Part shown: in pieces, positions 155 through 63,303 of the stretch
Numbering within the stretch: the stretch's first letter is position 1
Layout: every line of letters begins with the position of its first letter
Source: Elusimicrobia bacterium RIFOXYA2_FULL_39_19
GTDB lineage: Bacteria; Elusimicrobiota; Endomicrobiia; CG1-02-37-114; XYA2-FULL-39-19
Direction: 5' to 3'
Assembly (NCBI GenBank): GCA_001800285.1
Contig: MGVC01000020.1
Coordinates: forward strand, 1 to 64,000
DNA length: 64,000 bases
Made by a program: the position numbers and the translations under genes
The notes under the pieces: model-generated
What the model was told of the DNA's origin: nothing
What the model saw: the letters and a program-made list of their open reading frames with translations, nothing else
Database searches by the model: none

Positions 155-193
155 AAATAGTTGAAAAGAATCAAAAAACGGAGGAAAGGATTA

Positions 194-3100
194 ATGAGCA
201 AAAAAAATATTATTTTTACGGCATTATTAATTATTGGATTAGCAGTAAACTCTTTTTGCGGAGTTTCAGACCCGATAATTGCAACTGACGTAAGCCCGGA
301 TAATACAACCTTAGAAAAAATAGTTGCAAATGTAATAAATTCAGGCATGACAGACGAGCAAAAAGTTATGGCTCTATGGAAATGGAATATGCTGCATGTT
401 TCTCATAACGCTGGTATGACGGAACCTTTTATGGGCACTACAAATTCTACAGTAAGAGATACTATAAAATTTCTGCATTGTTACGGGTTTGCTGTATGCG
501 GCGATAATGCAACTTTGAGTTCAGGCTTATATGATGCAGCAGGTTTTCCTACACGTATCCGTCATCTTGGTTCGCATACAGTACCGGAAGTTTATTATGA
601 CGGCGCCTGGCATTACTATGACGCAAACCAGGCAGGTTATGCAATTAATAATGAAGGTAAAGTAGCAAGTTCAAATGACCTGGCAATAGCTCAGTACGGC
701 AACGGTGTTAATGGGGACCCTACATTGCTGGGCCCGCAGGCATCACCGAATCCTCCTGACCCTCATTTTCCGGGCAACAGTTGGTCTATTGTTCCGGGTT
801 ATCCTGCCTTTGTTTATAATTGTTATAACGGCTGGTACCCGAATAATCCTTACGATATAGGCCCTCAATGGTATGAAATACATGTCGATGCTCACCGGAT
901 GAATTTTACTTTAAAAGAAAATGAAACTTTTACCAGATATTTCCATCCACAAGGTTTTGGCGCATCAAAAAATGTTTGGTGGGGTACCGCTTCTGAACCT
1001 TACCGCAGCGGGACTACTTTTGCATTGAATTTTGTTTTACAGGATCCGGGAAATGAATTTTCCGTTAGTTCAGGCAAACGTTATCACGGCAACGGCCAAT
1101 TAGTATGGAATCCGGACTTTACCAGCGGAGATTTTTGGAACGGGGTAGAATCTTACAGTAATGTAGGAACTCAAGGATCTTCCCCGAAACTTTATGCCAC
1201 ATCAGGAACCGGCGAAATAATATTTTTAGTGGAGACTCCGTATCCCATAGGAGCCTCTCCGGCAACTACCAGTGTTTTTGATCCCGGTGCAACTAACGGT
1301 GCAATAATTTCAGGGGATGCTGTTGGAACGGCTGCCTTGGATGTTTCAATAAATCATGGGGCCACTTGGACTTCCTATGGCAGTGTGTCAGGAAGTTTCA
1401 GTGAAGATATAACAGACCAGGTAAAAGGCCATTATCTTTATTGGGCGCGGTTCAGGTTTTCTGCCGGGTCAAACGGATTGGATAATCTGCAGTTTGATAC
1501 CCGCACAATGATGAGTAATACCATGCTTCCCTGGCTGAATGAAGGAACAAACAATATTGAATATAATAGTTCAGGGCTTTCCTGTAAAACATTTATTCCG
1601 GACATTTGGACCAGCCAGGCAGTATATGAAGCCAAACGTCTTTCAGACAGTAACGTTTACTGGTATAACAATTCACTAAAACATCTTTGCATTACGGATA
1701 AGAATCAAAAAGGGTATGTCATTTATCAGATGGATGCACCGAATACTATAGAAAAAATAACTGCCAGTTTTGCTTATGCCCAGGGCATTCCTACCGTAAC
1801 GAATCAGGCATACCGCATTTATGTTTCTGTTGATAACGGTTCTACCTGGACTCAGGCCGGTGAATTTTATCCGCCTAATAAAGAATACTCAGCCTGGGGA
1901 TTTATGGATGGTGAATTGGATATATCAGCAGCGGGTGTTAACAGCTGCCAGGTAAAATTTGAAATGGATCCTCAGGGCAATAGCAGCGCTGGTATTAGCG
2001 CAATGCAAATCTATGCTCTTTATCAGGATCCATCTACTTCAGATTTAAAAATAACTTATGCCTGGAATGAAACCAAAACATTACATACGGACGAAAGGAC
2101 TGTTCCCGGTTCAGGTACATCAAATTACTCAATTTTTTGCGGGGCCAGTACTACGCCTGTGTATGTTAGAATGGAAGTAATATCCGCTAACGGTAAAACA
2201 ACCATAACCGGCAGTGTAAAAGATAGCGGCGGTTCTGGCATAAGCGGAGTAGATTTAGCCTTATCCGGAAGCAGTACCGGCAGTTACACAACCGGCGGCA
2301 GCGGATTTTATACATTCAGTGTTTCAACCGGCGGCACTTATACAGTAACCCCAACCAAAACAGACTGGAGCTTCAGCCCTGTAAATTTAAGTTTTGCAAA
2401 TATTACCAGCGCGCAAAGTAACCAGAACTTTACAGGTACTTACAGCGGCAGCGGCTATAGTATTGGCGGAACAGTAACCAGCAGTACCGGAAGTGCATTA
2501 GGCGGTGTACCAATAACGCTTAGCGGAAGTGCCAGCGGAAGTACAACAACTAACGGAAGCGGTGCTTACCAATTTAGCAGTGTAGCGCCCGGCAATTATG
2601 TAGTAACACCCAGTTTATCAAATTGGGCTTTCAGCCCTATAAACCGTACCTACACAGGACTGGGGGATAATCAAAGCAACCAGAACTTCACAGGTACCTT
2701 TATAATCCCTGCAGGGTACAGCGAGTTTGTATGTTCAATAAAAGCTACCGGCGGTGATTACACTTCTTTATCTGCCTGGGAAACAGCAATACAAAGTGAT
2801 TTAACCAGTTCAGCAGTGAAAGTATTTAATGGTATCAAAACCGGTACGATAAACGATGCAGCCACTGTAAGCGGTGCAACTTCCGGTGCAACCGGGACAG
2901 TATATCATTGTACTCAAACTCAAATATATTTGAATGTTACCGGCGGAACATTTCAAGCCGGTGAACAGATACGCGTAAATGCAAGCAATTATTTTACGGC
3001 CAATAATTCCGGTGATAAAGTTATTGCTGTGGCGGAATGTTATTCCATGACAGATACAACTCCTCTAACAATAGCCGGCTGGACCACCAGTACAACAAAT

Positions 3101-5836
3101 TATATAGAAATCCGTACTCCTGCATCATATAAACACAGCGGGCAGTGGGATACAGATGCGTATATAATGAACACAGGAGCAGCAGCATCAGATTCAATAT
3201 ACATAAATGAAGCCAATGTAAGAATAAACGGATTACAGATAAATGTAACAAAGGACGATACAGCAACATCAAATGGAATTCAGATTTATGGTGACGCTAC
3301 AAGCCCTGAAGATATAAGGATAAATAATTGTATTATCAAGGGGGCAGGAAATTTCACAACAAATTCAAAACGGGGAATATTTACAGCAGCTTCAGCAGTG
3401 GCAGGTTCAAAAGTAAGGATATACAACAACATTTTTTATGATTTTAAAGGAACCGGCAGTAGTTATATAGGGGCCTATATAAAGGATGCAAGCCGAACCT
3501 GTTACCTTTACAATAACACGGCAGTAAATTGTGAATACGGATATTACAGAGATTTGGCAACAGTAATAGTTAAGAACAATATAGCACAGGACTGCACAGA
3601 CGGTTTTGGCGGAGGCGGCTGGGATGCGGCATCCGATTACAATTTATCGGATATAGCCAGCGATGCTCCGGGAACAAATTCCAAGAATGCAACAACGGTT
3701 ACCTTTGAAAGTAAAACCAATAAAAATTTCCATATAGCAGAAGCAGATGCAAGCGCAAAAGATTTCGGAATGTATTTATCTACCGACACATATTTATCTT
3801 TCAGTACTGACATTGACGGTGATTCAAGAAGCGGCAGCTGGGATATTGGGGCGGATGAATACAGTGGAGGTGCAGGAAGCGATATAACTCCGCCGGAGCC
3901 GCCGACAAATTTAGCAGTTTTAGACCAAACAGAAACCAGCCTAACCATAAGCTGGACTGCCAGTGTACAGGCCAGTGACGGTGATTATGCAGAGTATTAC
4001 AAAATATACCGGGATGCGGTATTGGCCGGCACTACAACAGGTTTGAATTTTACAGATACAGGGTTGAGTGCAGGAACAACATATAATTATAAAGTATATT
4101 CTGTTGATGATATAGGTAACCAGTGCAGTGAATGTGTAACCGCAGATTTTAATACATCCGGATCCGGAGCAGATACAACTCCGCCTAATCCTCCGACAAG
4201 TTTGGATAGTTCCGTACAAACAGAAACCAGTATAACCTTAACCTGGACAGCCAGTGCACAGGCCAGTGATAATGATTATGCCAGTTACTATAAAGTTTAC
4301 CGGAATGCAGTTTTGGCAGGTTCACCCGGTGATACAACATTTACAGATACAGGATTAACAAAAAATACAACTTATAGTTACACAGTATATGCGGTAGATG
4401 ATGCCGGCAATCAGAGTACCAGTGCTGCCAGTAAAAGTTTTTCAACTTCAGGAGCAGATACAACAGCGCCTACAATAGTATCGGTGATAGTAACAAATGC
4501 AACAACAGTTACAGTAGTGTTCAGTGAACCAGTAGACCAAACAACAGCAGAAACAAAAGCAAATTACAGCATTAATAACAGTATAAATATAGCAGGCGCG
4601 GTATTAGATTCAGATGAAAAAACAGTAACTTTAACTACCAGCCAGCATAGCATAGGAACAACTTATACAATAACAATAAGCAGTATCAAGGACCAGGCAG
4701 GAACGCCCAACACAATAGCAGCCAACAGCACAATGAACTATATGTACGGAGACACAGTAGCCCCCGGCAATGTAACCAGCTTAAGTGTTATGGATAATCC
4801 TACAGACAGAGGCGGTAAGGCAATAGTCAGCTGGACCAAAGTTTCTGACAATGATATAGCAGGTTATAAAGTTTACTATTCACCGGTGCCCTTTAGCAGT
4901 ATAACCGGGGCAACCTATTTCAGCGGTTCGCCGGTTTCAAACCTAAACGCATCTTCATGCGTAGTAACCGGCTTAATAGTAAACAGTCAGGACTACTATT
5001 TTGGAGTATTGGCGGTAGATTTATCAGGAAATGTAAGCACTGTCATAGCTAATGTAGGCCCGGTACGAGCCATAAATAACCGGTTAGGTGAAACCATAAA
5101 CGGGCAGAAAGTTTATGAAATAACAATGAATTGTTATAACCTGAAAGCAAAAGTGATAGCAACCCCCGGTTTAAACGACGGAGTATATGTAAACATAAAG
5201 AAACCCGAAACAAAAGCATTAAAGATAAGCCAGGCAAACACAGCTGCGCAGAATGATACAAAGATAATGAGTACAACAATAAATGATTTATCGGATACCA
5301 GCACGGAGTTTAATGCTTTGTTGAGCCTGGTAGACAGAGTAACAATAGTATTGTCCTATCCATCAACTATAACAGGAGAAACAGAAAACGGATTAAGAAT
5401 ATATTGCCTGAATGAAACAACAGAGGAGTGGGAACTGGTACCCGGGGCGCAGGAATTATCCCCGCTTGCAAATACGGTAGCGGTAGAAGTAGGGCATTTC
5501 AGCGTGTACAGAATAATGGGAGCAGTATTATCAAAAGACAACTTAAAAGAGGTAAGGGTATATCCAAACCCGTTTAAACCTAATGACACTAAATCAGAAA
5601 CGGGAACCTGGGACCGGGGTATAGCGTTTGAGAATCTAACAAACAATTCAACGATAAAAATATATACGTTGACAGGTGAACCTGTAATAACGCTTGAAGA
5701 AACAGATAATGACGGTAAATATACCTGGGACGTAAAGAATAAGGAGAAAGAAAAACTCTCAAGCGGAACCTATATTTATAAAATCACTAACACTACCGGT
5801 GAAAAAATAACCGGAAAAATAGGGATAGTGAGATGA
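194..5836 (+). CDS. Large secreted modular protein: transglutaminase-like N-terminal region, carboxypeptidase-regulatory-like repeats, beta-helix-like module, FN3 domains, C-terminal YPNPFKPN sorting-type module
   Basis: ORF 161..5836; ATG at 194 follows GGAGGAAAGGA and starts a signal peptide (MSKKNIIFTALLIIGLAVNSFCG). FN3-like repeats (PPTNLAVLDQTETSLTISWTAS). C-term VRVYPNPFKPNDTKSETG...GKIGIVR. Confidence 0.85.
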   Translation: MSKKNIIFTALLIIGLAVNSFCGVSDPIIATDVSPDNTTLEKIVANVINSGMTDEQKVMALWKWNMLHVSHNAGMTEPFMGTTNSTVRDTIKFLHCYGFAVCGDNATLSSGLYDAAGFPTRIRHLGSHTVPEVYYDGAWHYYDANQAGYAINNEGKVASSNDLAIAQYGNGVNGDPTLLGPQASPNPPDPHFPGNSWSIVPGYPAFVYNCYNGWYPNNPYDIGPQWYEIHVDAHRMNFTLKENETFTRYFHPQGFGASKNVWWGTASEPYRSGTTFALNFVLQDPGNEFSVSSGKRYHGNGQLVWNPDFTSGDFWNGVESYSNVGTQGSSPKLYATSGTGEIIFLVETPYPIGASPATTSVFDPGATNGAIISGDAVGTAALDVSINHGATWTSYGSVSGSFSEDITDQVKGHYLYWARFRFSAGSNGLDNLQFDTRTMMSNTMLPWLNEGTNNIEYNSSGLSCKTFIPDIWTSQAVYEAKRLSDSNVYWYNNSLKHLCITDKNQKGYVIYQMDAPNTIEKITASFAYAQGIPTVTNQAYRIYVSVDNGSTWTQAGEFYPPNKEYSAWGFMDGELDISAAGVNSCQVKFEMDPQGNSSAGISAMQIYALYQDPSTSDLKITYAWNETKTLHTDERTVPGSGTSNYSIFCGASTTPVYVRMEVISANGKTTITGSVKDSGGSGISGVDLALSGSSTGSYTTGGSGFYTFSVSTGGTYTVTPTKTDWSFSPVNLSFANITSAQSNQNFTGTYSGSGYSIGGTVTSSTGSALGGVPITLSGSASGSTTTNGSGAYQFSSVAPGNYVVTPSLSNWAFSPINRTYTGLGDNQSNQNFTGTFIIPAGYSEFVCSIKATGGDYTSLSAWETAIQSDLTSSAVKVFNGIKTGTINDAATVSGATSGATGTVYHCTQTQIYLNVTGGTFQAGEQIRVNASNYFTANNSGDKVIAVAECYSMTDTTPLTIAGWTTSTTNYIEIRTPASYKHSGQWDTDAYIMNTGAAASDSIYINEANVRINGLQINVTKDDTATSNGIQIYGDATSPEDIRINNCIIKGAGNFTTNSKRGIFTAASAVAGSKVRIYNNIFYDFKGTGSSYIGAYIKDASRTCYLYNNTAVNCEYGYYRDLATVIVKNNIAQDCTDGFGGGGWDAASDYNLSDIASDAPGTNSKNATTVTFESKTNKNFHIAEADASAKDFGMYLSTDTYLSFSTDIDGDSRSGSWDIGADEYSGGAGSDITPPEPPTNLAVLDQTETSLTISWTASVQASDGDYAEYYKIYRDAVLAGTTTGLNFTDTGLSAGTTYNYKVYSVDDIGNQCSECVTADFNTSGSGADTTPPNPPTSLDSSVQTETSITLTWTASAQASDNDYASYYKVYRNAVLAGSPGDTTFTDTGLTKNTTYSYTVYAVDDAGNQSTSAASKSFSTSGADTTAPTIVSVIVTNATTVTVVFSEPVDQTTAETKANYSINNSINIAGAVLDSDEKTVTLTTSQHSIGTTYTITISSIKDQAGTPNTIAANSTMNYMYGDTVAPGNVTSLSVMDNPTDRGGKAIVSWTKVSDNDIAGYKVYYSPVPFSSITGATYFSGSPVSNLNASSCVVTGLIVNSQDYYFGVLAVDLSGNVSTVIANVGPVRAINNRLGETINGQKVYEITMNCYNLKAKVIATPGLNDGVYVNIKKPETKALKISQANTAAQNDTKIMSTTINDLSDTSTEFNALLSLVDRVTIVLSYPSTITGETENGLRIYCLNETTEEWELVPGAQELSPLANTVAVEVGHFSVYRIMGAVLSKDNLKEVRVYPNPFKPNDTKSETGTWDRGIAFENLTNNSTIKIYTLTGEPVITLEETDNDGKYTWDVKNKEKEKLSSGTYIYKITNTTGEKITGKIGIVR

Positions 5837-6058: not shown

Positions 6059-6087
6059 TTGAAAACCAGGGTTTTACGGTGTATAAT
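6059..6087 (+). promoter_or_regulatory. Sigma70-type promoter (TTGAAA-17-TATAAT) for the 6187 operon
   Basis: TTGAAA 6059-6064, 17-nt spacer, TATAAT 6082-6087, preceded by AAAAAAACCC. Confidence 0.75.
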
Positions 6088-6129
6088 AATAATAGGAAAT
6101 ACGCATATTGTGCATTTCCTATTATTTTT
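6088..6129 (+). terminator. Leader hairpin plus T-tract (attenuator-like)
   Basis: AATAATAGGAAAT / ATTTCCTATTATT 13-bp stem followed by TTTTT, directly downstream of the -10. Confidence 0.7.
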
Positions 6130-6137
6130 GTATGTCA

Positions 6138-6153
6138 ATGCAGACGGTTGCGC
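6138..6153 (+). promoter_or_regulatory. Operator-like motif, site S0 (ATGCAGACGGTTGCGC)
   Basis: Matches the recurrent 16-bp motif; 8 nt after the T-tract. Confidence 0.65.
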
Positions 6154-6186: not shown

Positions 6187-7320
6187 ATGAAATTTAGAAA
6201 ATTTGGCAAATTAGATTGGCAGGCTTCCGTACTCGGGTTCGGCTGTATGCGTTTTCCAGTTGTTAATAACAGTGATGCAGTAGATGAAAAGGAAAGCATA
6301 CGAATGATTCGTTATGCAATTGATAACGGTGTAAACTACCTGGATTCAGCTTATGGTTATCACGAGGGTAAAAGCGAGGTGGTTTTAGGTAAGGCTTTAA
6401 AGGCCGGATACAGGCAAAAAGTCAAACTAACTACAAAAATTCCTGTTTGGGCTGTAAATACAGAAAGCGATTTTGATAAAGTTCTGGACGAACAACTAAA
6501 AAGGCTCAATGTTGACTATATAGATTTTTATCTTTTTCATTCACTTAATATAGATTATTGGAAAAAAATACAAAAATTCAATTTAATTGAAAAAGCCCAG
6601 TCTGCAATAAAAGAAGGAAAAATCAGGAATATAGGTTTTTCATCTCACGATAGTTACAAGAATATAAAAACAATAATTGATAGTTTTGATCAATGGGTTT
6701 TATGCCAGTTTCAATATAATTATTTGGATTCTAATTCAGAAAGTGTTAAATATGCAGCGTCAAAGGGGCTTGCTGTTGTTGTAATGGAACCTTTGCTTGG
6801 AGGAAAACTTTCAAATCCTCCGCAAATTATTAAAGATATTTTCGATAACTCAGGTTATAGAAAAGAACGTTCTCCTTCAGATTGGGCTTTACAATGGGTG
6901 TGGAACCAGCAGGAAATTTCTGTGGTGTTAAGCGGAATGAGCGCGATGCAGCAGGTTCAAGAAAATATTAAGTCAGCAAATATTTCCAGTCCGGGGCTTT
7001 TAAACCGCAAAGAGTTAAAAGTTCTTGAGCGTGCCAGAGCGCAGTATGAAAAATTAATTCCCATTAAATGTACAGGGTGCAATTATTGCAAACCATGCCC
7101 TCAAAAAATAAATATACCCTGGGTGTTTGAATTATATAACAAAGGTTTTATACACCAGCATTTTGAAAGTTACTCCAGGGCTTATTCTATGTTAGGAGAA
7201 GCGAAAGCTGATGCGTGTATTCAATGTGCTAAGTGTGAAAAGAAATGTCCTCAAGGGCTGCCAATAAGTAAATTTATGTCAAAGGTAAGCGGGGTTTTTA
7301 AAACATGCGCAGTGAAATAA
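6187..7320 (+). CDS. Aldo/keto reductase with C-terminal 4Fe-4S ferredoxin-like domain
   Basis: MKFRKFGKLDWQASVLGFGCMRFP; C-terminal CTGCNYCKPCP and CIQCAKCEKKCP clusters. Start 6187 preferred over 6037, which would cover the promoter and hairpin. Confidence 0.9.
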   Translation: MKFRKFGKLDWQASVLGFGCMRFPVVNNSDAVDEKESIRMIRYAIDNGVNYLDSAYGYHEGKSEVVLGKALKAGYRQKVKLTTKIPVWAVNTESDFDKVLDEQLKRLNVDYIDFYLFHSLNIDYWKKIQKFNLIEKAQSAIKEGKIRNIGFSSHDSYKNIKTIIDSFDQWVLCQFQYNYLDSNSESVKYAASKGLAVVVMEPLLGGKLSNPPQIIKDIFDNSGYRKERSPSDWALQWVWNQQEISVVLSGMSAMQQVQENIKSANISSPGLLNRKELKVLERARAQYEKLIPIKCTGCNYCKPCPQKINIPWVFELYNKGFIHQHFESYSRAYSMLGEAKADACIQCAKCEKKCPQGLPISKFMSKVSGVFKTCAVK

Positions 7321-21238: not shown

Positions 21239-21811
21239 TTGATGGTACAGGAAGATTCTAAACTTTTAGAAGAATTTTTAAAGGGTGATGAACAGGCTTT
21301 TGAATCATTGGTATGTAAGTATAAAACGGTGGTTTATGGCACTATTCATTCCATTGTGGGAAATATCCAGGACGCGGAAGACGTTTCACAGGAAGTATTT
21401 TTAAATATTTACAAAACCCTGAATTCTTTCCGTGGGCAGTCTTCATTATCCAGCTGGATTTACAGGATAGCTGTTAATAAAAGCATCGATAATGTCAGGA
21501 AAAAGAAAAATAAGGCAATATCCCTTGAAACTGAGCTTGATAATGATGAAAAACTGAAATTATTGGATGTTTTATCAAGCAAAGAAGACAGCGATCTGGT
21601 GGTTTTAGAAAAAACGGAATTTCAAAAAACAGTAAGTAAAGTAATGAATTCTTTGCCGGAAAAGTTCCGGGTAATTTTAACATTAAAAGAACTGGAAGGA
21701 TTGAGCTATGATGAAATTTCAAAAATTATGAATATTTCCGTTAATAAAGTCAAAGTTTGGCTGTTCAGGGCCAGGAAAAAATTAAAAAAAGATTTAGCTT
21801 TGTCTGATTAA
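21239..21811 (+). CDS. ECF sigma factor
   Basis: Sigma70 region 2 (FLNIYKTLNSFRGQSSLSSWIYRIAVNKSIDNVRKKKN) and region 4 (LPEKFRVILTLKELEGLSYDEISKIMNISVNKVKVWLFRARKKLKK). Confidence 0.95.
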   Translation: MMVQEDSKLLEEFLKGDEQAFESLVCKYKTVVYGTIHSIVGNIQDAEDVSQEVFLNIYKTLNSFRGQSSLSSWIYRIAVNKSIDNVRKKKNKAISLETELDNDEKLKLLDVLSSKEDSDLVVLEKTEFQKTVSKVMNSLPEKFRVILTLKELEGLSYDEISKIMNISVNKVKVWLFRARKKLKKDLALSD

Positions 21812-21827
21812 AAGGGGGAAACAAGCC

Positions 21828-22295
21828 GTGGCTTGCAACGAACTATTATTGTCTTCATATATTGACAAAGAGCTGTCTCCGGTTGAAGAAAGGAAATTAA
21901 CCGGGCACTTAAAAGAATGCGCGAGCTGCAGAAAAGAGCTGGGTTGTTTATTGCAAACAAGGAAATTATTTGCATTGAAGGAAAGAAAGAATCCTGATGA
22001 GTATTTTGAAACAAGAATACTTGCCGGTATAAGAGCGAAACTGAAAGAAGAACAACAGCTTGCAGGCAGGCCGTTTTACGGGAAATTCATGCCTGTAACC
22101 ATACCCGTAGCTGTAGTTTTGGTTCTTTTTGTGTTTGGGGTGATGAATCAAAAAACAAAACAGGGGCCGGTTAATGTTCAAAGTGATATAAACAACGTGA
22201 TGAAACTCAATGTAGACAAAGTTATAGATCAAGATTTTGATAAGGAGCTTATTGATTTGTATTACAATTCGTTTGGCCAGGAGATATTGAAATGA
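21828..22295 (+). CDS. Anti-sigma factor with zinc-finger-type N-terminus
   Basis: GTG start; ACNELLLSSYIDKELSPVEERKLTGHLKECASCRKE; single TM segment. Confidence 0.85.
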   Translation: MACNELLLSSYIDKELSPVEERKLTGHLKECASCRKELGCLLQTRKLFALKERKNPDEYFETRILAGIRAKLKEEQQLAGRPFYGKFMPVTIPVAVVLVLFVFGVMNQKTKQGPVNVQSDINNVMKLNVDKVIDQDFDKELIDLYYNSFGQEILK

Positions 22296-22678
22296 AAAGC
22301 ATATGGAAAGTTCTTATAATAATAAGCTTGACAGTGAATTTGTTTGCAATCCTGTTTATTAGTTCAGAAGCAAGCAAAAACGAACCTGCAAATAGCGATA
22401 TTGAAGCCCTGAGGCAGGAAAAAAGCGGTAAAAGTATTGATAATTTCGCGAAAAACTTAGGTTTGACTGAAATGCAAAAGAAAGAAGCGGCTAAAATTAT
22501 GGAAGAAGGCTGGGGAAAGGTAAGTGAAGAAAAGCAGAAGATGAGAGACAGGGTTTATCAAATTGTGCTGGAGATGCATAAAAAAATTGCAAAATTGCTT
22601 ACACCGGAACAATTGGAAAAATTTAAAACAACTTCAAAAAAATTTGAACAAATTGTTAAAGAAAAAGAAAAAAAATAA
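22292..22678 (+). CDS. Small periplasmic Spy/CpxP-like protein
   Basis: N-terminal TM; LTEMQKKEAAKIMEEGW...MRDRVYQIVLEMHKKIAKLLTPEQLEKF; overlaps anti-sigma stop. Confidence 0.6.
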   Translation: MKSIWKVLIIISLTVNLFAILFISSEASKNEPANSDIEALRQEKSGKSIDNFAKNLGLTEMQKKEAAKIMEEGWGKVSEEKQKMRDRVYQIVLEMHKKIAKLLTPEQLEKFKTTSKKFEQIVKEKEKK

Positions 22679-22680
22679 GG

Positions 22681-22710
22681 TGTAACATTTTGGATACTCA
22701 TGCGTCTAAA
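22681..22710 (+). promoter_or_regulatory. ECF-type promoter (TGTAACATTTT...CGTCTAAA) upstream of the GH38-like operon
   Basis: Same TGTAACATTTT / CGTCTWA elements with 22-nt offset as at 21194. Confidence 0.8.
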
Positions 22711-22741
22711 CAGCAGAAGCCGATTCTGCTGTTTTTTTTTT
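22711..22741 (+). terminator. Intrinsic terminator / leader hairpin
   Basis: CAGCAGAA-gccga-TTCTGCTG followed by T10; begins near the predicted start site of the 22681 promoter. Confidence 0.9.
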
Positions 22742-22749
22742 AAGCATTC

Positions 22750-22765
22750 GCGAAGACGTTTGCGC
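22750..22765 (+). promoter_or_regulatory. Operator-like motif, site S1 (GCGAAGACGTTTGCGC)
   Basis: 16-bp recurrent motif 8 nt after the T-tract, 16 nt before ATG 22782. Confidence 0.75.
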
Positions 22766-22781
22766 AAAAAGAGGTAAAACA

Positions 22782-25700
22782 ATGAACAAAACCCATTTTT
22801 TTTACAAGTCCGGCATTTGCAGTTTACTAATTATTGGAGCCTGGTTTTCCGGTGTTTCAAATGCGCAAATGGCTGAAGGGTTTGTAATTGCGCACCCGCA
22901 TTATGATGTGGGCTACGCCAAAGACTATCTTACCTGCATGCAGTATTCCCGCGATCAAATAAGGACAAATATGCAGTTAATAGAAGGCGGAGAAACCAGA
23001 ACGGTCTATAATCACGGCAACATCCTCAATGTCAAAGATTTCACTGTAAAAGAACCTCAATATACAAGCAATGTGACTAATTTACTTGCGCAAAAAAAGA
23101 TGGATTTTCCGGCAAACTGGACCGGGGCATTTGTAAACGGCCATTCCGGGGAATATTTAGTAAGAACGGTTCTTTTTTCAGTCCGCTATCTTGAAGATAC
23201 ATTGAATTACCGGACTAACTGGTACCAGTTAAATGATACCCCGTCTTTTACGCCGCAGTTGCCGCAGGTACTTGCAAAAAGCGGAGTAAATTTTATCATA
23301 ATACACTGGGGATACGGATGCCCCTCCCAGGTTGATACTTATTCAAAACGTATTTTCCGCATGGTGGGGCTTGATGGTACGGGAATAATTGGTTATGCCG
23401 GCGCGGACAGATATTCTTTTAATTTAAATATAACTCCCGACGCAGCAGAGTCCGCATTAGGCGTGTGTTTTACCCAGGCGGGCGGTGATTATGGAGTTAC
23501 TTCAAGCGCGATAGTAGCCCGGGCTAATGATATAGCCACCTGGAATACGGCAAACAGCGCCTCCCAGAACCGTTTATGGCAGATGCGCCCGTGTTCTGAA
23601 TTAGCGGATACGGTCAATAGTAAAATTACGGCAGGAGTTTATAACCCGGTAGCATTTAGTTCATACGGCATACCCTGGAGAGGGCGTATTAAAAAAAAGG
23701 AAAGACAAAAATTTTGGTCCAACTATACAGCCAACCGGCTTCCAATAATAGAAAAAGTTTCGGTTCTTCTGGATATGAAAGGGATATATTCTTATCCCCA
23801 GACAGAAATAAATTCCATATGGGAACGTATTTTATGGATGGAGGAACACAACGGCGGATTAGCTGTAGATTCTGAAGGCCTTACCACAGACGGGCGCAAG
23901 GACCTTGATGCTAAGGCAGGGTATGATTCAACTAACCAGCTTTTGAACGGGCAGATGGAATTATTAACCTCAAAAATCCAGAGGTCAAGAGCCAGCACGG
24001 CGGTAACTGTGTTCAATGCGCTCAACTGGACAAGAACAGACGCGGTAATAATAACAGTCCCTAAAAACGGAGTAACAACCCCGATGGTTGTAGATAAAGA
24101 CGGAACCCGGGTTCTTACACAAACTCTTTCTTCTTCATCAACCGGATTTACGTTACTATTTGAGGCAAAAAATGTCCCTTCAATGGGATACAAAACTTTT
24201 TATGTGGAAGAAGAAAGCGGAGCTGCCCCTTCCAGCGACCTTAGCGCGGCCGCGGGCCAGATAGAAAATACGTATTACAGGGTAAACTACGCGGGAAATA
24301 CAATAACATCCGTATATGACAAAACCAATTCTAAAGAAATGATGGAAAGCGGTTCGTTTGAATTTGGCGCGGGTATTTCTTCAAGCCTTTTGGAAGACGG
24401 CTCATTGAGAAAAAAAGTGCGTATAATCCGCAGCAGCGGCACGGTTGAGATTTCTTTATGCGCCTATACTGACAGGGTAGATTTATGGGCAACCGCGAAT
24501 CAGCTAAATCAGTCTTTTCCGATACATTACAACATAACTACTCCGGAACTTCAGGCAGGCATCCAGTATGGAAGCACTCCTGTCTCTGATGATATGAGCT
24601 GGAGATTTCATACGGACGCCGGGGCAAAATTTTCACAGCGCTCGGCCGCAAACACTTTTGTTTATGAATCTACGGACCAGGACGACATGTTCCACCATCT
24701 TGGTAAATACTGGATACCGTCCAAATGGTGGGATGTTAAAAAAGCGGATAATAGTTATGGAATAACTACCGCTTACGCGGATTCGCACACGGAAATTCTT
24801 ATAGGTTCCAGCGCGGGGATTTTTACCGGTGATGAAGCGGATGTTTATTTAATATTTTCGTATAAAGGGATAGGGGGCGAAGATATAAGTAGCCGGCCTG
24901 AGTTTAATTTTTCTTTTCGCGGCCATACCGGCAACTGGTCTACAACCAACGCGCCCCGGTTAGGCTGGGAAATGTCCACCCCGCTGGTAGCAGGGACAGC
25001 GGCTACAAGCAATCCTACATTGCCTGAAGAAGAAAGTTTATTGACAGTCCCGGATAATAATGTAATAGTTTCAGTATTAAAAAAATGCGAGAGAAGTTCC
25101 GGTTATGTGTTGCGTTATTTTGAAACTCTTGACCAGGATGTATCTGCGGACATAACCTTTGATTCATTTTTCCCCGTAGTGGGTGCCCAAAGAGCAAACC
25201 TGATAGAAGAATCATCAACCACGATAGCAATTACAGCCGGCAATATAACTGTCCCGACATTAAGCCAGGGTATAGAAACAGTGTTATTATCAATGTCATC
25301 TGATAGCACGCCGCCTAATGCGCCCGCAAATCTTACCAATCCAACAAAAACCCAGACAACTTTATCATTAGTATGGGCCGCAAGTACGCAAGCAGGCGAT
25401 GGTGATTATGCAAGTTATTACAGGGTATACAGGAATTCCGTGCAGATAAGTACAGCAACAGGTGTCAGTTATGTTGATAGCGCATTGACAGCGGGAACCA
25501 CTTACAGTTATGGAATTTATGCGGTAGATGATTCAAATAATGTAAGCGTTTCTTCGTCCGCAGGAAGTTTTTGCACATCAGCAAGCACAGGAACTCCTCC
25601 CCCGGTATTAGACACCACTCCGCCGAATGCACCGGCAAATTTAGGCAGTTCTGCTCAGACCGAAACCAGCATAACAATATACTGGACTGCTTCCGCGAAA

Positions 25701-27263
25701 GCCAGCGACAACGATTATGCAAGATATTATAAAATTTCAAGGGATTCGGTTCAGATAAGCACCACTTCAAACACAACATTTACAGATACTGGATTAATCG
25801 CAAATACCACATATAATTATTCTATTTATGCGGTAGATGATTCAAGCAATGCTAGCACTACTGCGGCAACAGGAAGTTTTTCTACATTGTCTTCGGGAGG
25901 CGATATTATCCCGCCGTCACTGGTTTCTGTAACGGCAATAAGTTCAGGGGCAATAAATGTAGAATTCAGCGAGCCGGTGGATGAAGTATCAGCGGAAACA
26001 ATCGGTAATTACAGCATAGATAATTCAATAACAATAACAAGCGCAGTATTGGGCGCGGATTTAAAAACAGTAACATTTGCCACAAGCGAGCACAGCGCCG
26101 GAATAACTTACACAATAACGATAAACGGTATCCAGGATAAAGCCGGCACACCCAACACAATAGCGGCAAACAGCCATTTAAGTTATATGTTCGGGGATAC
26201 AACTCCTCCGTCAAAAGTAACTCAAATCAGCACAAAAGATTATATTGCGGACGTTGGGGATAAAATAATAGTCAGCTGGACGAAAGTTGCTGACGCAGAT
26301 GTTTCAGGTTACAAAATATATTACGCTTACACGCAGTTCACCAGTACTATGGAAGCTACGTATTTTAGCGGTTCGCCGTTAACAAATGCGACTGTATCTT
26401 CCTGCGCGGTTACCGGGCTGGATAATACGCACGATTATTATTTTGCGGTAGTGGCTGTAGATTTATCAGGGAATATTGACCCTGTGTTGTTAAGCACCGG
26501 GCCCATAAAAGCAACAAATAATAGAGTTGGTACAGGAAATTATGAAATAGTATCAGGATTTAACTCAAAACTAAAAGTCATAGTCCCCGCAGGGACCAAC
26601 AACGGGGTGTATATAGACATATCAGTGCCGGGTTCAGATAAAACAGCAAAAATTAATTCAGCAAACACAACGGCGTTAAGTGATACAAAAATTGTTGCTG
26701 CAACTGTCAATCAGTTGTCGGATACCTGTACGGAATTCAAAGCGAAATTAAGTTTATTGTCGGAAGTTACAATAGTTATACCCTATACGGCAATGATAAC
26801 AGGTGAAACGGAAGACGGATTGAAAATTTATACGTTAAATGAAACAACCAACGAGTGGGAACTGGTAAGCGGAAATCAAACAATAGATAAAGTAAACAAT
26901 ACAGTATCAGCGATAACTTCGCATTTCAGCGTGTTTAGAATATTGGGAACTGTATTATCAGCGGATAAGCTCACAAATGTGCGGGTATACCCTAATCCGT
27001 TCAAACCCAATGACAACAAACCTCAAACCGGTGACTGGGATACCGGGATAATCTTTGACGGATTAACAAATAATTCAACAATAAAGATTTATACAATGTC
27101 AGGAGAACTTGTAAACACGCTTGAAGAAACAGACAATGACGGGAAATACCAGTGGGATGTAAAAAATAAAGAGAAAGAAAAACTTTCCAGCGGAACCTAT
27201 ATCTACAGAATCACCAATTCTTCCGGAGAAAAGATAACCGGGAAAATCGGAATAGTGAGGTAG
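22782..27263 (+). CDS. Large secreted GH38-like protein with FN3 repeats and YPNPFKPN C-terminal module
   Basis: Signal peptide; FVIAHPHYDVGYAKDYL; GH38 C-domain-like AVTVFNALNWTRTDAVIITVP; C-term VRVYPNPFKPNDNKPQTG...GKIGIVR. Confidence 0.75.
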   Translation: MNKTHFFYKSGICSLLIIGAWFSGVSNAQMAEGFVIAHPHYDVGYAKDYLTCMQYSRDQIRTNMQLIEGGETRTVYNHGNILNVKDFTVKEPQYTSNVTNLLAQKKMDFPANWTGAFVNGHSGEYLVRTVLFSVRYLEDTLNYRTNWYQLNDTPSFTPQLPQVLAKSGVNFIIIHWGYGCPSQVDTYSKRIFRMVGLDGTGIIGYAGADRYSFNLNITPDAAESALGVCFTQAGGDYGVTSSAIVARANDIATWNTANSASQNRLWQMRPCSELADTVNSKITAGVYNPVAFSSYGIPWRGRIKKKERQKFWSNYTANRLPIIEKVSVLLDMKGIYSYPQTEINSIWERILWMEEHNGGLAVDSEGLTTDGRKDLDAKAGYDSTNQLLNGQMELLTSKIQRSRASTAVTVFNALNWTRTDAVIITVPKNGVTTPMVVDKDGTRVLTQTLSSSSTGFTLLFEAKNVPSMGYKTFYVEEESGAAPSSDLSAAAGQIENTYYRVNYAGNTITSVYDKTNSKEMMESGSFEFGAGISSSLLEDGSLRKKVRIIRSSGTVEISLCAYTDRVDLWATANQLNQSFPIHYNITTPELQAGIQYGSTPVSDDMSWRFHTDAGAKFSQRSAANTFVYESTDQDDMFHHLGKYWIPSKWWDVKKADNSYGITTAYADSHTEILIGSSAGIFTGDEADVYLIFSYKGIGGEDISSRPEFNFSFRGHTGNWSTTNAPRLGWEMSTPLVAGTAATSNPTLPEEESLLTVPDNNVIVSVLKKCERSSGYVLRYFETLDQDVSADITFDSFFPVVGAQRANLIEESSTTIAITAGNITVPTLSQGIETVLLSMSSDSTPPNAPANLTNPTKTQTTLSLVWAASTQAGDGDYASYYRVYRNSVQISTATGVSYVDSALTAGTTYSYGIYAVDDSNNVSVSSSAGSFCTSASTGTPPPVLDTTPPNAPANLGSSAQTETSITIYWTASAKASDNDYARYYKISRDSVQISTTSNTTFTDTGLIANTTYNYSIYAVDDSSNASTTAATGSFSTLSSGGDIIPPSLVSVTAISSGAINVEFSEPVDEVSAETIGNYSIDNSITITSAVLGADLKTVTFATSEHSAGITYTITINGIQDKAGTPNTIAANSHLSYMFGDTTPPSKVTQISTKDYIADVGDKIIVSWTKVADADVSGYKIYYAYTQFTSTMEATYFSGSPLTNATVSSCAVTGLDNTHDYYFAVVAVDLSGNIDPVLLSTGPIKATNNRVGTGNYEIVSGFNSKLKVIVPAGTNNGVYIDISVPGSDKTAKINSANTTALSDTKIVAATVNQLSDTCTEFKAKLSLLSEVTIVIPYTAMITGETEDGLKIYTLNETTNEWELVSGNQTIDKVNNTVSAITSHFSVFRILGTVLSADKLTNVRVYPNPFKPNDNKPQTGDWDTGIIFDGLTNNSTIKIYTMSGELVNTLEETDNDGKYQWDVKNKEKEKLSSGTYIYRITNSSGEKITGKIGIVR

Positions 27264-37646: not shown

Positions 37647-37675
37647 TTGACAAAATAAGGTTTATGTATTATATA
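37647..37675 (+). promoter_or_regulatory. Sigma70 promoter (TTGACA-17-TATATA) for sulfatase operon
   Basis: AAAAAACCATTGACAAAATA context shared with 63203 and 46440 promoters. Confidence 0.8.
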
Positions 37676-37726
37676 TGTATTGAAAGGACGTCTGGCAGCA
37701 TGTGGGCGTTTTATTTTTAGGTATAT

Positions 37727-37742
37727 GCGAAAACGTCTGCGC
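37727..37742 (-). promoter_or_regulatory. Operator-like motif, site S2 (GCGAAAACGTCTGCGC on +; core AGACGTTT on -)
   Basis: 8 nt after TTTTATTTTT; 12 nt before ATG 37755. Confidence 0.75.
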
Positions 37743-37754
37743 AAGTGAAATAAT

Positions 37755-39260
37755 ATGAAAAAACCCAATATTTTGCTAATTACTACGGATCAACAACACT
37801 GGAATACATTAGGTACCATTAACCCTTCAATAAAAACCCCATCCTTAGATCGTTTAGCAAATGAAGGTGTACGTTTTGAAAGAGCCTATTGCAGCAACCC
37901 TACCTGTTCCCCCGCAAGAGCCAGCATAATTACCGGCATGTACCCATCAAATCATAATTGCTGGGCTATCGGAGTAAAATTACCGGAGGACGTTCCTACC
38001 GTAGGCGATATATTTATGAAAAACGGCTACCATACAAGTTTAATAGGGAAGGCTCATTTTCAGCCGACAGTATCTGCCGCGGGAAGTGAATCTCTTGAAT
38101 GTCATCCTGTATTACGTGACCTGGATTTTTGGAGAAAATTTCACGGGCCCTGGTATGGTTTTGAACATATAGAATTGGCACGCAATCATGCTGATGAACA
38201 TCTGGTGGGACAGCATTACGCAATCTGGCTGGAGGAGCATGGTTTAAAAAACTGGCGGGATTATTTTGTAAGCTGGCCTAAAAAAGATGAACCTTTACGA
38301 AAACATGCCTGGGACTTGCCGGAAAAACTTCATTACACTACCTGGACCGGCGAACGCACCATCGCACAGATTGATAAAAGCCCGCAAGAAGATAAACCGT
38401 TTTTTATCTGGTCAAGTTTTCATGACCCGCACCCGCCTTACCTCGTGTCCGAGCCCTGGGATAAAATGTATAATCCGAAAAATGTTAACCCCGGTAAATT
38501 TACAAAGGGCGAGTTTGATAAAATGCCTCCGCATTACGCAAAAACCCAGAAAAGAAATCAGGATTATTCTATGTATAAAGAAGAGCATAATATTATCGGG
38601 CTTAAATGCCACTTGATAGAAGAAAAGGAACTCCATAAAGACCTGGCTGTTTATTACGGTATGATTAGTTTTGTAGATTATCAGATTGGAAAAATACTTG
38701 GATCTCTTGAAAAATCCGGTCAGGCTGAAAATACTATCGTAATATTTACTACAGACCATGGCCATTTTTTAGGCCAGCACGGATTAATTGATAAAGGCCC
38801 GTTCCACTATGAAGATTTGCTGAAAATTCCTATGATTGTCCGGTATCCGGGCCAGGTTCCGGAAGGAAAAACCAGCAGTGCTCTTCAGTCACAGGTAGAT
38901 TTTGCTCCTACATTTTTAAATGCTTGTGGACTTGAGGTGCCCGGCTATATGCAGGGTGTAAATCAGCTGGATACCTGGTGCGGCAAAACAGAAAGTTCAA
39001 GGGATTCAGTAATTGTAGAAAACCGCATGCACCCGACACGCATGAATTTACGTACTTATATAAATGAAAGATATAAAATCACCATATACCGCGGGCAGGA
39101 TTACGGGGAACTGTTTGATTTAAAAGAAGACCCGGGTGAGTTAAATAACTTGTGGGATAATCCGGCAAGTGATGGCTTAAAGAAAACCTTGCTGCATAAA
39201 TTCGTTCAGTCAGAAATTGAAAAAGAATCTGTCCGTATGCCAAGAATATCAGGTTCATAA
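37755..39260 (+). CDS. Type I sulfatase
   Basis: NILLITTDQQHWNTLG; CSPARASIITGMYP; FTTDHGHFLGQHGLIDKGPFHYEDLLKIP. Confidence 0.92.
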   Translation: MKKPNILLITTDQQHWNTLGTINPSIKTPSLDRLANEGVRFERAYCSNPTCSPARASIITGMYPSNHNCWAIGVKLPEDVPTVGDIFMKNGYHTSLIGKAHFQPTVSAAGSESLECHPVLRDLDFWRKFHGPWYGFEHIELARNHADEHLVGQHYAIWLEEHGLKNWRDYFVSWPKKDEPLRKHAWDLPEKLHYTTWTGERTIAQIDKSPQEDKPFFIWSSFHDPHPPYLVSEPWDKMYNPKNVNPGKFTKGEFDKMPPHYAKTQKRNQDYSMYKEEHNIIGLKCHLIEEKELHKDLAVYYGMISFVDYQIGKILGSLEKSGQAENTIVIFTTDHGHFLGQHGLIDKGPFHYEDLLKIPMIVRYPGQVPEGKTSSALQSQVDFAPTFLNACGLEVPGYMQGVNQLDTWCGKTESSRDSVIVENRMHPTRMNLRTYINERYKITIYRGQDYGELFDLKEDPGELNNLWDNPASDGLKKTLLHKFVQSEIEKESVRMPRISGS

Positions 39261-46439: not shown

Positions 46440-46468
46440 TTGACAAAAATACAATTATATATTATAAA
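46440..46468 (+). promoter_or_regulatory. Sigma70 promoter (TTGACA-17-TATAAA)
   Basis: TTGACA 46440-46445, TATAAA 46463-46468; AAAAAAACAC A-tract upstream. Confidence 0.85.
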
Positions 46469-46509: not shown

Positions 46510-46628
46510 GAGAAGACCCGAAATGGTAAACCCTGGGAAACCAGGGGGCGCAAAACCAATGGGCCCTGAGCGAAGTCCTGAGTGAAGTCAAAGGATGAGT
46601 TGGATGGGCAGCCGGTTGCCGATAATGC
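46510..46628 (+). ncRNA. Cyclic di-GMP-I (GEMM-I)-like riboswitch aptamer
   Basis: GGTAAACC-CTGGGAAACCAG-GGGGCGCAAAACC...GGGCC...GGGCAGCCGGTTGCCGA: GAAA-capped P2, GACGCAAAGCC-like junction and GGTAGCCGGGTTACCGA-like 3' segment of GEMM-I. Confidence 0.8.
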
Positions 46629-46665: not shown

Positions 46666-46720
46666 ACGAGCTATTGAAGGTATCTCTATAAAAGATAATT
46701 TCAGTAACTCGTTTTTTTTT
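46666..46720 (+). terminator. Riboswitch expression-platform terminator hairpin
   Basis: ACGAG-c-TATTGAA ... TTCAGTA-a-CTCGT followed by T9, between aptamer and start codon. Confidence 0.8.
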
Positions 46721-46728
46721 GAATAAAC

Positions 46729-46744
46729 ATGAAGACGTTTGCAC
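46729..46744 (+). promoter_or_regulatory. Operator-like motif, site S3 (ATGAAGACGTTTGCAC)
   Basis: 8 nt after T-tract; 29 nt before ATG 46774. Confidence 0.7.
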
Positions 46745-46773: not shown

Positions 46774-48471
46774 ATGAAACTAAAATTAATTTTTCTGGCT
46801 TTAATAACAACTTTAATGTTTTGCGGAAACGTATATGCAAAAAAATCTGCCGAAAAAATAGCTTCCGAAGAACGGGACCGGCAGACCACGATGAAGATAT
46901 TGCTAAGAACACAATATATATTAAAACAAACTCCCGAAACTACAGTTTTAAGAACACCAACCAAAGAAGAAACCGGTCGCGGTTATGTGCTTTTTGTTTG
47001 TGATTACATAGATAGAGTATACCGCAACACTGTTCCTAAAGAAAAAGAAATTAAAAATATAATTAATACATTTGCCACACCTGGTGAATATGAACCAATT
47101 ACTTTTGCTGTATACCCGTTAAAAGATTTGGGTCCAGTTCAGGTAAAAGTGTCTGATCTTACAACTGCTGATGGAAGCAAAATAAGCAAAGAAAATATTG
47201 ATATCAGAAAAGTCTCTTATCTGTTAAAAAGAACTTTTCCAGAAAGCAAGGTCTGCAGAGAAGTACCGCAGCTTCTTGAAAAAATAGATACAGTTGATAT
47301 TTTAAATGGTAATACTCAGGAATGGTGGCTGACTGTAAAAGTACCTGAAAATGCAAAAGCAGGCATATATAAAGGGAAAGTTACAGTTAATAGTGAAGCT
47401 AAAACTACCGGTGAGTTGGCTATATCTTTTGAAGTTTTACCTTTTAAACTGCTTAGTTCACAGGAAACCGGAGTTTGGACCGGCGTATATGCTTATAGTG
47501 ATGATAATATGCAAGACCTTGCTGATATGAGGGAGCACGGTATTACAGGATTTAATGATTTTAGTATTTCAAAGACAAAGAATAGTTTTGAAGATGCAGA
47601 TAGATATATGGAAAATCTTAAAAAAGCCGGGTTAAAAGGACCTGTTTATCTTTATTACGGTACAGAAATTGCCATTTCACCGGAATTTAAAGATAGATTA
47701 TCAAATTTGAAAAATCATCTTAAGTCAGCCAACTGGCCGGAAGTTCTAATTTATCCGGTTGATGAACCTACCGCAGGAACCCAGGCAACTTTAGACCAGT
47801 GTTTGATAGCTATGAAAACCATAAAGAATATCCCGGGATTAAAAACTTATGTAACAATTACCAACAATACTGACCCAAAATTAGATTTAGTTCTGCCTTA
47901 TACGGACATAGGCCCCTATAATCCTAACCGTACAAAATTGTTAGAAGCTTTAGAAAAAACAAAAAAAGCAGGAAAAGATTTTTTCTGGTATAACGGCCTT
48001 ACAAGAGACAATCATCCCAGAAGAGGCCGTATATTGTGCGGATTGTGGAATTGGAAATTAAATGCAAAAGGTTTTACTAACTGGCATTACAACGAAACCC
48101 AGGGCGACCCCTTTAATGATTTAGACGGCGCCGGCATGGATGCCGCTTTTGTTTATCCTTCCCGGGAGCAGGAATCAGGCGAACATCTTGAAGGAATTCC
48201 TACTTTGATTTGGGAAACCATGAGAGAAGGCATAGATGACCGCAGGTATATTGAAACTCTGAAATCATACATTACAAAAGCAAATTCATCTAAAGATCAG
48301 AACAAAATTAAAGCAGCAGCCCAGGCAGCAAAAATGCTTGATGAAATTTTTAACAGCCTTCCCATTTTTGATAAATGGGAAAATACAGAAAAATGGTTTC
48401 TTGAAATTGATGCAGATAAAGTTCAGGGATACCGCAGGCAGATAGCGGACGCCATAAAAAATTTACATTGA
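46774..48471 (+). CDS. Secreted DUF4091-type glycoside-hydrolase-like protein
   Basis: Signal peptide; TPGEYEPITFAVYPLKDLGPVQVKVSDL; VLIYPVDEPT; LIWETMREGIDDRRYIETL. Confidence 0.8.
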   Translation: MKLKLIFLALITTLMFCGNVYAKKSAEKIASEERDRQTTMKILLRTQYILKQTPETTVLRTPTKEETGRGYVLFVCDYIDRVYRNTVPKEKEIKNIINTFATPGEYEPITFAVYPLKDLGPVQVKVSDLTTADGSKISKENIDIRKVSYLLKRTFPESKVCREVPQLLEKIDTVDILNGNTQEWWLTVKVPENAKAGIYKGKVTVNSEAKTTGELAISFEVLPFKLLSSQETGVWTGVYAYSDDNMQDLADMREHGITGFNDFSISKTKNSFEDADRYMENLKKAGLKGPVYLYYGTEIAISPEFKDRLSNLKNHLKSANWPEVLIYPVDEPTAGTQATLDQCLIAMKTIKNIPGLKTYVTITNNTDPKLDLVLPYTDIGPYNPNRTKLLEALEKTKKAGKDFFWYNGLTRDNHPRRGRILCGLWNWKLNAKGFTNWHYNETQGDPFNDLDGAGMDAAFVYPSREQESGEHLEGIPTLIWETMREGIDDRRYIETLKSYITKANSSKDQNKIKAAAQAAKMLDEIFNSLPIFDKWENTEKWFLEIDADKVQGYRRQIADAIKNLH

Positions 48472-55727: not shown

Positions 55728-55756
55728 TTGACTTTTTATCGTTTCCGTATTATACT
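55728..55756 (+). promoter_or_regulatory. Sigma70 promoter (TTGACT-17-TATACT)
   Basis: AAAAAACCC A-tract, TTGACT 55728-55733, TATACT 55751-55756. Confidence 0.75.
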
Positions 55757-55824
55757 TAAGTATCAGTTTTTTGTTCTTTAGTTTTTGAAAGATTTTTGAG
55801 GAATTTATTTTTTTTGTAAAATTC

Positions 55825-55840
55825 ATGAAGACGTTTGCGC
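55825..55840 (+). promoter_or_regulatory. Operator-like motif, site S4 (ATGAAGACGTTTGCGC)
   Basis: 9 nt after T8 tract; 37 nt before ATG 55878. Confidence 0.7.
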
Positions 55841-63202: not shown

Positions 63203-63231
63203 TTGACAAAATACAGTTTTCGTACTATATA
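63203..63231 (+). promoter_or_regulatory. Sigma70 promoter (TTGACA-17-TATATA)
   Basis: TTTAAAAAAACCATTGACAAAATACAG context nearly matching 37647. Confidence 0.8.
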
Positions 63232-63238
63232 TGTATTA

Positions 63239-63279
63239 GAGAAGCGAGTAGGTAATTTGGGCGTTTTCTCGTTTTTTTT
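63239..63279 (+). terminator. Leader hairpin plus T8 (attenuator-like)
   Basis: GAGAA...TTCTC(G) imperfect stem then TTTTTTTT, between promoter and motif S5. Confidence 0.5.
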
Positions 63280-63287
63280 GCATAGTT

Positions 63288-63303
63288 GCGAAAACGTCTG
63301 CAC
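63288..63303 (-). promoter_or_regulatory. Operator-like motif, site S5 (GCGAAAACGTCTGCAC on +; core AGACGTTT on -)
   Basis: 8 nt after T8 tract. Confidence 0.7.

Follow-up and report, generated by a model that had tools for sequence, protein, structure and literature searches.

Why should an operator-like sequence stand at a fixed distance behind a terminator-like T-tract in one gene leader after another? The question arises from the window, the whole 64-kb stretch of DNA that was analysed, in which an earlier note had described six 16-mers, each following a T-tract and lying upstream of a start codon. All six (S0 to S5) were found where they had been placed, at 6138, 22750, 37727, 46729, 55825 and 63288, and the gaps measured between the final T of each tract and the start of its 16-mer, 8, 8, 8, 8, 9 and 8 nt, agree with the spacing claimed. 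A degenerate form of the pattern, with up to three mismatches, has 14 matches in the window against a shuffle mean of 5.15, and none of the shuffles reached 14. The parts of the six leaders are as follows.

6059 to 6087, + strand: S0 promoter, TTGAAA-N17-TATAAT
6091 to 6123, + strand: S0 hairpin adjoining the T-tract, -12.4 kcal/mol
6122 to 6129, + strand: S0 T-tract, TTATTTTT
6138 to 6153, + strand: S0 operator, ATGCAGACGGTTGCGC, one mismatch against the window-type core
6187 to 7317, + strand: S0 first gene, aldo/keto reductase with a 4Fe-4S domain
22708 to 22734, + strand: S1 terminator hairpin, intergenic, -14.1 kcal/mol
22732 to 22741, + strand: S1 T-tract, T10
22750 to 22765, + strand: S1 operator, GCGAAGACGTTTGCGC
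22782 to 27260, + strand: S1 first gene, GH38-type protein with a T9SS C-terminal domain
37647 to 37675, + strand: S2 promoter, TTGACA-N17-TATATA
37685 to 37712, + strand: S2 hairpin, -7.9 kcal/mol
37709 to 37718, + strand: S2 T-tract, TTTTATTTTT
37727 to 37742, + strand: S2 operator, GCGAAAACGTCTGCGC when read toward the gene
37755 to 39257, + strand: S2 first gene, sulfatase
46440 to 46468, + strand: S3 promoter, TTGACA-N17-TATAAA, found by eye (the scanner's T-at-6 rule leaves such sites out)
46515 to 46623, + strand: c-di-GMP-I (GEMM-I) riboswitch aptamer, RF01051, 54.5 bits (gathering score 35)
46667 to 46711, + strand: S3 hairpin, -14.2 kcal/mol, candidate riboswitch expression platform
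46712 to 46720, + strand: S3 T-tract, T9
46729 to 46744, + strand: S3 operator, ATGAAGACGTTTGCAC
46774 to 48468, + strand: S3 first gene, GH123 protein
55728 to 55756, + strand: S4 promoter, TTGACT-N17-TATACT
55808 to 55815, + strand: S4 T-tract, T8, gap 9, with a weak hairpin (-2.7 kcal/mol)
55825 to 55840, + strand: S4 operator, ATGAAGACGTTTGCGC
55878 to 57644, + strand: S4 first gene, LamG-like protein with a T9SS C-terminal domain
63203 to 63231, + strand: S5 promoter, TTGACA-N17-TATATA
63239 to 63277, + strand: S5 hairpin, pairing into the T-tract, -9.1 kcal/mol
63272 to 63279, + strand: S5 T-tract, T8
63288 to 63303, + strand: S5 operator, GCGAAAACGTCTGCAC when read toward the gene
Start about 63435: S5 first gene, sulfatase

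Operator copies across the genome

We searched the whole assembly (3.09 Mb, 86 contigs, 97.8% complete) for further copies. The exact window-type core YGMARACGTYTKCR occurs seven times, as S1 to S5 and at two places outside the window, C29:30411 in the lacI1 leader and C34:15849 (C34_down). A T-tract lies 8-9 nt upstream of all seven, and in the two outside copies it is a T8 with a gap of exactly 8. Together with S0, a one-mismatch member of the group, the window-type sites number eight. CG-centred operators of other sequence stand in the leaders of LacI-2, LacI-3 and LacI-4 (AGTCAAACGTTTGATT, CAGCACACGTGTGCGC and CACCAAACGTTTGCAT), each exactly 8 nt past a T8, and the same T8-N8 spacing precedes the operator TAACAAACGTTTGCAC at C85:1294, downstream of which come a gene for a secreted protein and then alpha-mannosidase (GH38) reading frames. 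The genome thus holds 12 copies of the module with four operator types; the six copies first reported are real but were an undercount.

Three of the four copies of the CAMACGTKTG type were initially found by a search that included the T-tract. Searched for without that condition, CAMACGTKTG occurs at only four places in the genome, the LacI-2, -3 and -4 leaders and C85:1294, and all four have the module. A 16-mer lacking a T-tract, or a different spacing in further copies, had been named in advance as evidence against the coupling; the exact core never occurs without a T-tract in the 3.09 Mb assembly, and the spacing is kept in all module copies outside the window. The exception is a single one-mismatch site, TGAAGACGTGTGCA at C29:30754-30767, which has no T-tract. 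It falls at the start site for the upstream lacI1 promoter; the T8-linked lacI1 operator, of which it is a possible looping partner, is 343 bp away. When T-tracts were paired with other CG-centred sites in the same genome, no clear further operator type appeared among the matches listed.

Spacing, side and strand

The gap is 8 nt in 11 of the 12 copies and 9 nt in one. With the operators of all copies brought into register, 93 of the 96 cells at positions -16 to -9 are T, compared with a mean of 4.2 T of 12 and a maximum of 9 in the other leader columns. Gap positions -8 to -1 are unconserved, except that T is scarce close to the tract. Placing each operator at random in the leader it came from gives a joint log10 P of -20.5 for a run of T5+ that ends 8-9 nt upstream, a value that overstates independence because the lacI3, lacI4 and C85_1294 leaders are related and the offset was first spotted in the window; for the two new window-type copies taken by themselves P is about 3e-4. 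The distance from the end of the -10 element to the end of the T-tract varies from 40 to 75 nt where a nearby promoter is recognisable, and that from the operator to the first ATG ranges from a few nt up to 65 nt. Because both distances vary, it is the operator to which the T-tract is locked, rather than the promoter or the start codon.

The module also has a direction. In 12 of 12 copies the T-tract is upstream of the operator, facing the oncoming polymerase, and in 12 of 12 the T residues are on the coding strand. When the eight window-type sites are read in the direction of the gene, the better half-site (TGC) is the gene-proximal one in every case, and in seven of them the weaker GAA arm faces the T-tract. 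Across all 12 operators, as read from the alignment, the gene-side half is the better one in at least nine and the opposite is clear in none. The motif had been described as present in both orientations, which is true of the inner R/Y pair, swapped in S2 and S5, but not of the half-site polarity, which is the same in all window-type sites.

Such regularity could in principle be inherited, if a terminator-like tract had stood in the leader of an ancestral LacI gene, had been copied along with the paralogues and their sites, and now had little function. The clearly related promoters of the lacI3, lacI4 and C85_1294 leaders and the likeness of the S2 and S5 promoters fit this account. However, the eight window-type copies differ in gap, hairpin, promoter and start-codon distance while the T8 and its spacing persist, although drift would erode them, and we disfavour coincidence by descent as very improbable.

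Hairpins and promoters

A hairpin of -6.9 kcal/mol or stronger adjoins the T-tract in eight of the 12 copies and is weak in the other four (S4, lacI1, C34_down and lacI4), where the U-tract alone must therefore suffice. As a part of the module the hairpin is thus not universal. The predicted energies reproduce the ranking given earlier for the window, with S0, S1 and S3 strong, S5 intermediate, S2 weaker and S4 poor.

Good sigma70-type promoters lie about 35-55 nt before the end of the T-tract in S0, S2, S4 and S5. The likely S3 promoter is farther upstream, ahead of the riboswitch aptamer, and the likely lacI1 promoter is likewise ahead of an aptamer. In the leaders with a recognisable nearby promoter, the predicted operators are downstream of the start site and clear of the promoter. 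No promoter-like sequence was found upstream of S1 (22300-22800, coding strand) or, for C34_down, on the coding strand from the upstream gene to the operator. Barring an unusual promoter that escaped notice, these two copies could therefore affect only polymerase already engaged in elongation. The promoter that the earlier note assigned to each leader module is accordingly present in S0, S2, S3, S4 and S5 but absent from S1, which is intergenic. Directly before the S1 module, at 21239-22292 on the + strand, are a gene for a Sigma-70-type (ECF-like) sigma factor and then a zf-HC2 putative anti-sigma gene.

Candidate regulators and downstream genes

The genome has seven LacI-family (PF00356) genes. 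LacI-1 (C29:30247-30384, minus strand; Pfam domains PF00356, PF13377 and PF00532), LacI-2 on C34, LacI-3 on C12 and LacI-4 on C85 are 48-66% identical to one another and form one clade, and all four have the module. LacI-5 to LacI-7, which are 22-36% identical to these four, are without it. The CG-centred near-palindromes in the leaders of LacI-1 to LacI-4 strengthen the assignment of the 16-mer to LacI-family operators. Only LacI-1, among the LacI genes, has a window-type operator in its own leader. Judged by operator type, LacI-1 is the natural candidate regulator of the window-type operators, and it most likely controls S0 to S5, C34_down and itself. The coupling of operator and T-tract, with its spacing, side, strand, downstream position and link to one LacI clade, can be read directly from the sequence.

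The T-tract might matter as DNA, the LacI clade recognising a composite site of the 16-mer and a T-tract 8 bp away, through the minor groove of the A/T-tract, DNA bending or a second protein, and acting as a plain roadblock. The confinement of the module to one LacI clade, the very constant length and spacing of the T-tract, and the four copies without a good hairpin all agree with this. A DNA element could point either way, however, whereas all 12 T-tracts are on the polymerase-arrival side with T on the coding strand, and hairpins of unrelated sequence adjoin eight of them. Moreover, LacI-1 to LacI-4 are of ordinary length and LacI-1 has only LacI-family domains in Pfam; no extra DNA-binding domain was seen. 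We consider a composite site unlikely.

Besides the first genes listed above, the cluster holds further sulfatases, GH94, GH20-like and GDSL esterase genes, and transport genes. The regulator had been called glycan-responsive, which suits neighbours that include sulfatases and GH38, GH123, GH94 and GH20-like proteins; judged from these neighbouring genes only, the inducer is probably a breakdown product of a sulfated glycan. The earlier description of a secreted glycan-degradation regulon was too narrow, since the copies extend over more than one regulon.

c-di-GMP riboswitch aptamers

The c-di-GMP-I aptamer of S3, which the earlier note had missed, follows the S3 promoter and precedes the S3 hairpin and the GH123 gene. 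The lacI1 leader on C29 contains a degenerate c-di-GMP-I-like aptamer with an enlarged arm (L023:10203-10040, minus strand; 25.1 bits, below the cut-off of 35), situated between the lacI1 promoter and the lacI1 T8-N8-operator. The hairpin and T-tract could on this evidence be an ordinary attenuator or riboswitch expression platform, with the adjacent operator as an independent input. Yet the other leaders with a nearby promoter are too short for an aptamer, at about 35-70 nt from the start to the end of the T-tract, every other Rfam family stayed below its cut-off across the 64-kb window, and the fixed 8 nt would be left unexplained; we regard two independent inputs as improbable. The S3 hairpin may serve riboswitch and roadblock alike. 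Two near-identical c-di-GMP-I aptamers, at L027:7143-7208 and L026:6063-6114 (+ strand), are cut by contig ends just after lacI4 and lacI3, and are possibly a repeat that broke the assembly.

Distribution outside this genome

Among 342 genomes of the phylum, a search for T7-gap 8-ACGT made no other genome stand out, G000 being the highest with 13. No hairpin/T-tract module was seen at 25 inspected LacI genes of other genomes in the phylum, and at the four LacI genes inspected in a genome of the same family (G002) the candidate operators are at or near the start site and lack a T-tract. None of the relatives covered was found to have the module, so a roadblock-terminator has no support from conservation between genomes. 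A scan of 85,462 species for T6-N8/9-core returned 77 stretches from many phyla, with one match each, which we judged to be mostly chance or ordinary LacI sites, and the matches in viral contigs were judged likewise.

A proposed regulated roadblock-terminator

We propose, with a probability of roughly 0.6, that the module is a regulated roadblock-terminator, in which the repressor-bound operator would make polymerase end early on a weak terminator. RNA polymerase would start at the sigma70-type promoter of the leader, or arrive from the upstream gene (S1 and C34_down), and transcribe the short hairpin and about eight U. A LacI-family repressor dimer on the operator, its edge about 8 bp past the U-tract, would then halt polymerase with the 3' end inside the U-tract or at its margin. 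Stalled there, the complex would have its weakest rU:dA hybrid and the hairpin, where present, could act, so that backtracking or release would replace push-through. Once an inducer had removed the repressor, the mini-terminator alone would be too weak for most polymerases and the genes would be transcribed. LacI-2, -3 and -4 would work in this way too, each on its own gene and through its own operator. The earlier note had suggested a roadblock or termination-control switch, and the fixed T8-N8 coupling across 12 copies, its direction and its strand lend support to that idea; the binding protein, the stalling, the release and the inducer are what we infer from this arrangement.

LacI, PurR, GalR, CcpA and CodY are known to act as roadblocks (PMC10310618), and a bound EcoRI mutant stalls the active site of bacterial polymerase 12-13 nt before its site (PMC3913778); the T8 spans -16 to -9 before the operator, which can be set against that published stall distance. 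Several points weigh against the roadblock-terminator. If polymerase stalls with its 3' end at U4-U5, a hairpin that ends at the U-tract may be unable to fold completely unless polymerase backtracks or approaches more closely. Mfd removes most roadblocked polymerase in E. coli (PMC4132739), and because Mfd is also encoded in the present genome, a dedicated terminator may not be needed. In an RNA polymerase I system, furthermore, lac repressor supported only slow release (PMC12366685).

Comparison with known systems

The module resembles the roadblocks formed by LacI, by PurR at purB and by GalR (PMC10310618) in that the operator lies beyond the promoter, where polymerase has to pass, and in that repression would work by stopping elongation. 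It differs from them in its fixed T8 at nearly every site, often with a hairpin, at the expected stall point, and the known cases considered here depend on Mfd for release (PMC4132739). The E. coli purB operator was not found with the pattern used for comparison. With intrinsic-terminator attenuators (trp/TRAP, riboswitches) the module shares a terminator-like hairpin and U-tract between promoter and gene, but here the apparent controlling factor binds downstream DNA and not nascent RNA, and no competing antiterminator was identified.

A parallel in layout is termination by RNA polymerase I, which combines a hairpin, a T-rich tract and a roadblock (Reb1/Nsi1/TTF1) (PMC12366685). The order of RNA hairpin (here in 8 of 12 copies), T-rich tract on the non-template strand, gap and roadblock site is the same. 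Unlike the Pol I terminator, the present module is bacterial, stands in gene-start leaders, has its hairpin directly beside the T-tract and would use a protein that an inducer could probably remove. A further difference is that Pol I comes to a halt 15 bp short of the site and backtracks to a hairpin lying about 20 nt to its rear; its roadblock protein is of the Reb1/TTF1 type (Myb-like), whereas the candidate here is of the LacI family. Because the genome is prokaryotic and the candidate roadblock belongs to the LacI family, the module is an analogue and not a member of the Pol I type.

In the open-access literature we found no bacterial operator described as standing at a set distance from a mini-terminator in a leader. 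The usual account of protein roadblocks leaves the stalled polymerase to Mfd; in the present leaders a release signal is seemingly placed at the expected stall point. At even odds, this repressor clade makes a weak leader terminator strong, the DNA-bound protein 8 bp past the U-tract being an inducer-releasable termination factor and thus a bacterial counterpart of the hairpin/T-rich/roadblock Pol I terminator, combined in one leader with a c-di-GMP riboswitch that shares the hairpin. If true, hairpin-T8-N8-operator would be a simple, portable switch, bacterial repression would be tied to the Pol I way of ending transcription, and a sequence rule would allow roadblock repression to be recognised in genomes without experiments.

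Large secreted proteins

The genome also encodes three very large secreted proteins of about 1,880-1,895 aa that are alike at the N-terminus (window 161-5833; L023:2107-7740, minus strand; L024:1961-7645). Two of them stand close to LacI genes of the module clade, and Pfam places a transglutaminase-like domain in two of the three, those in the window and on C29.
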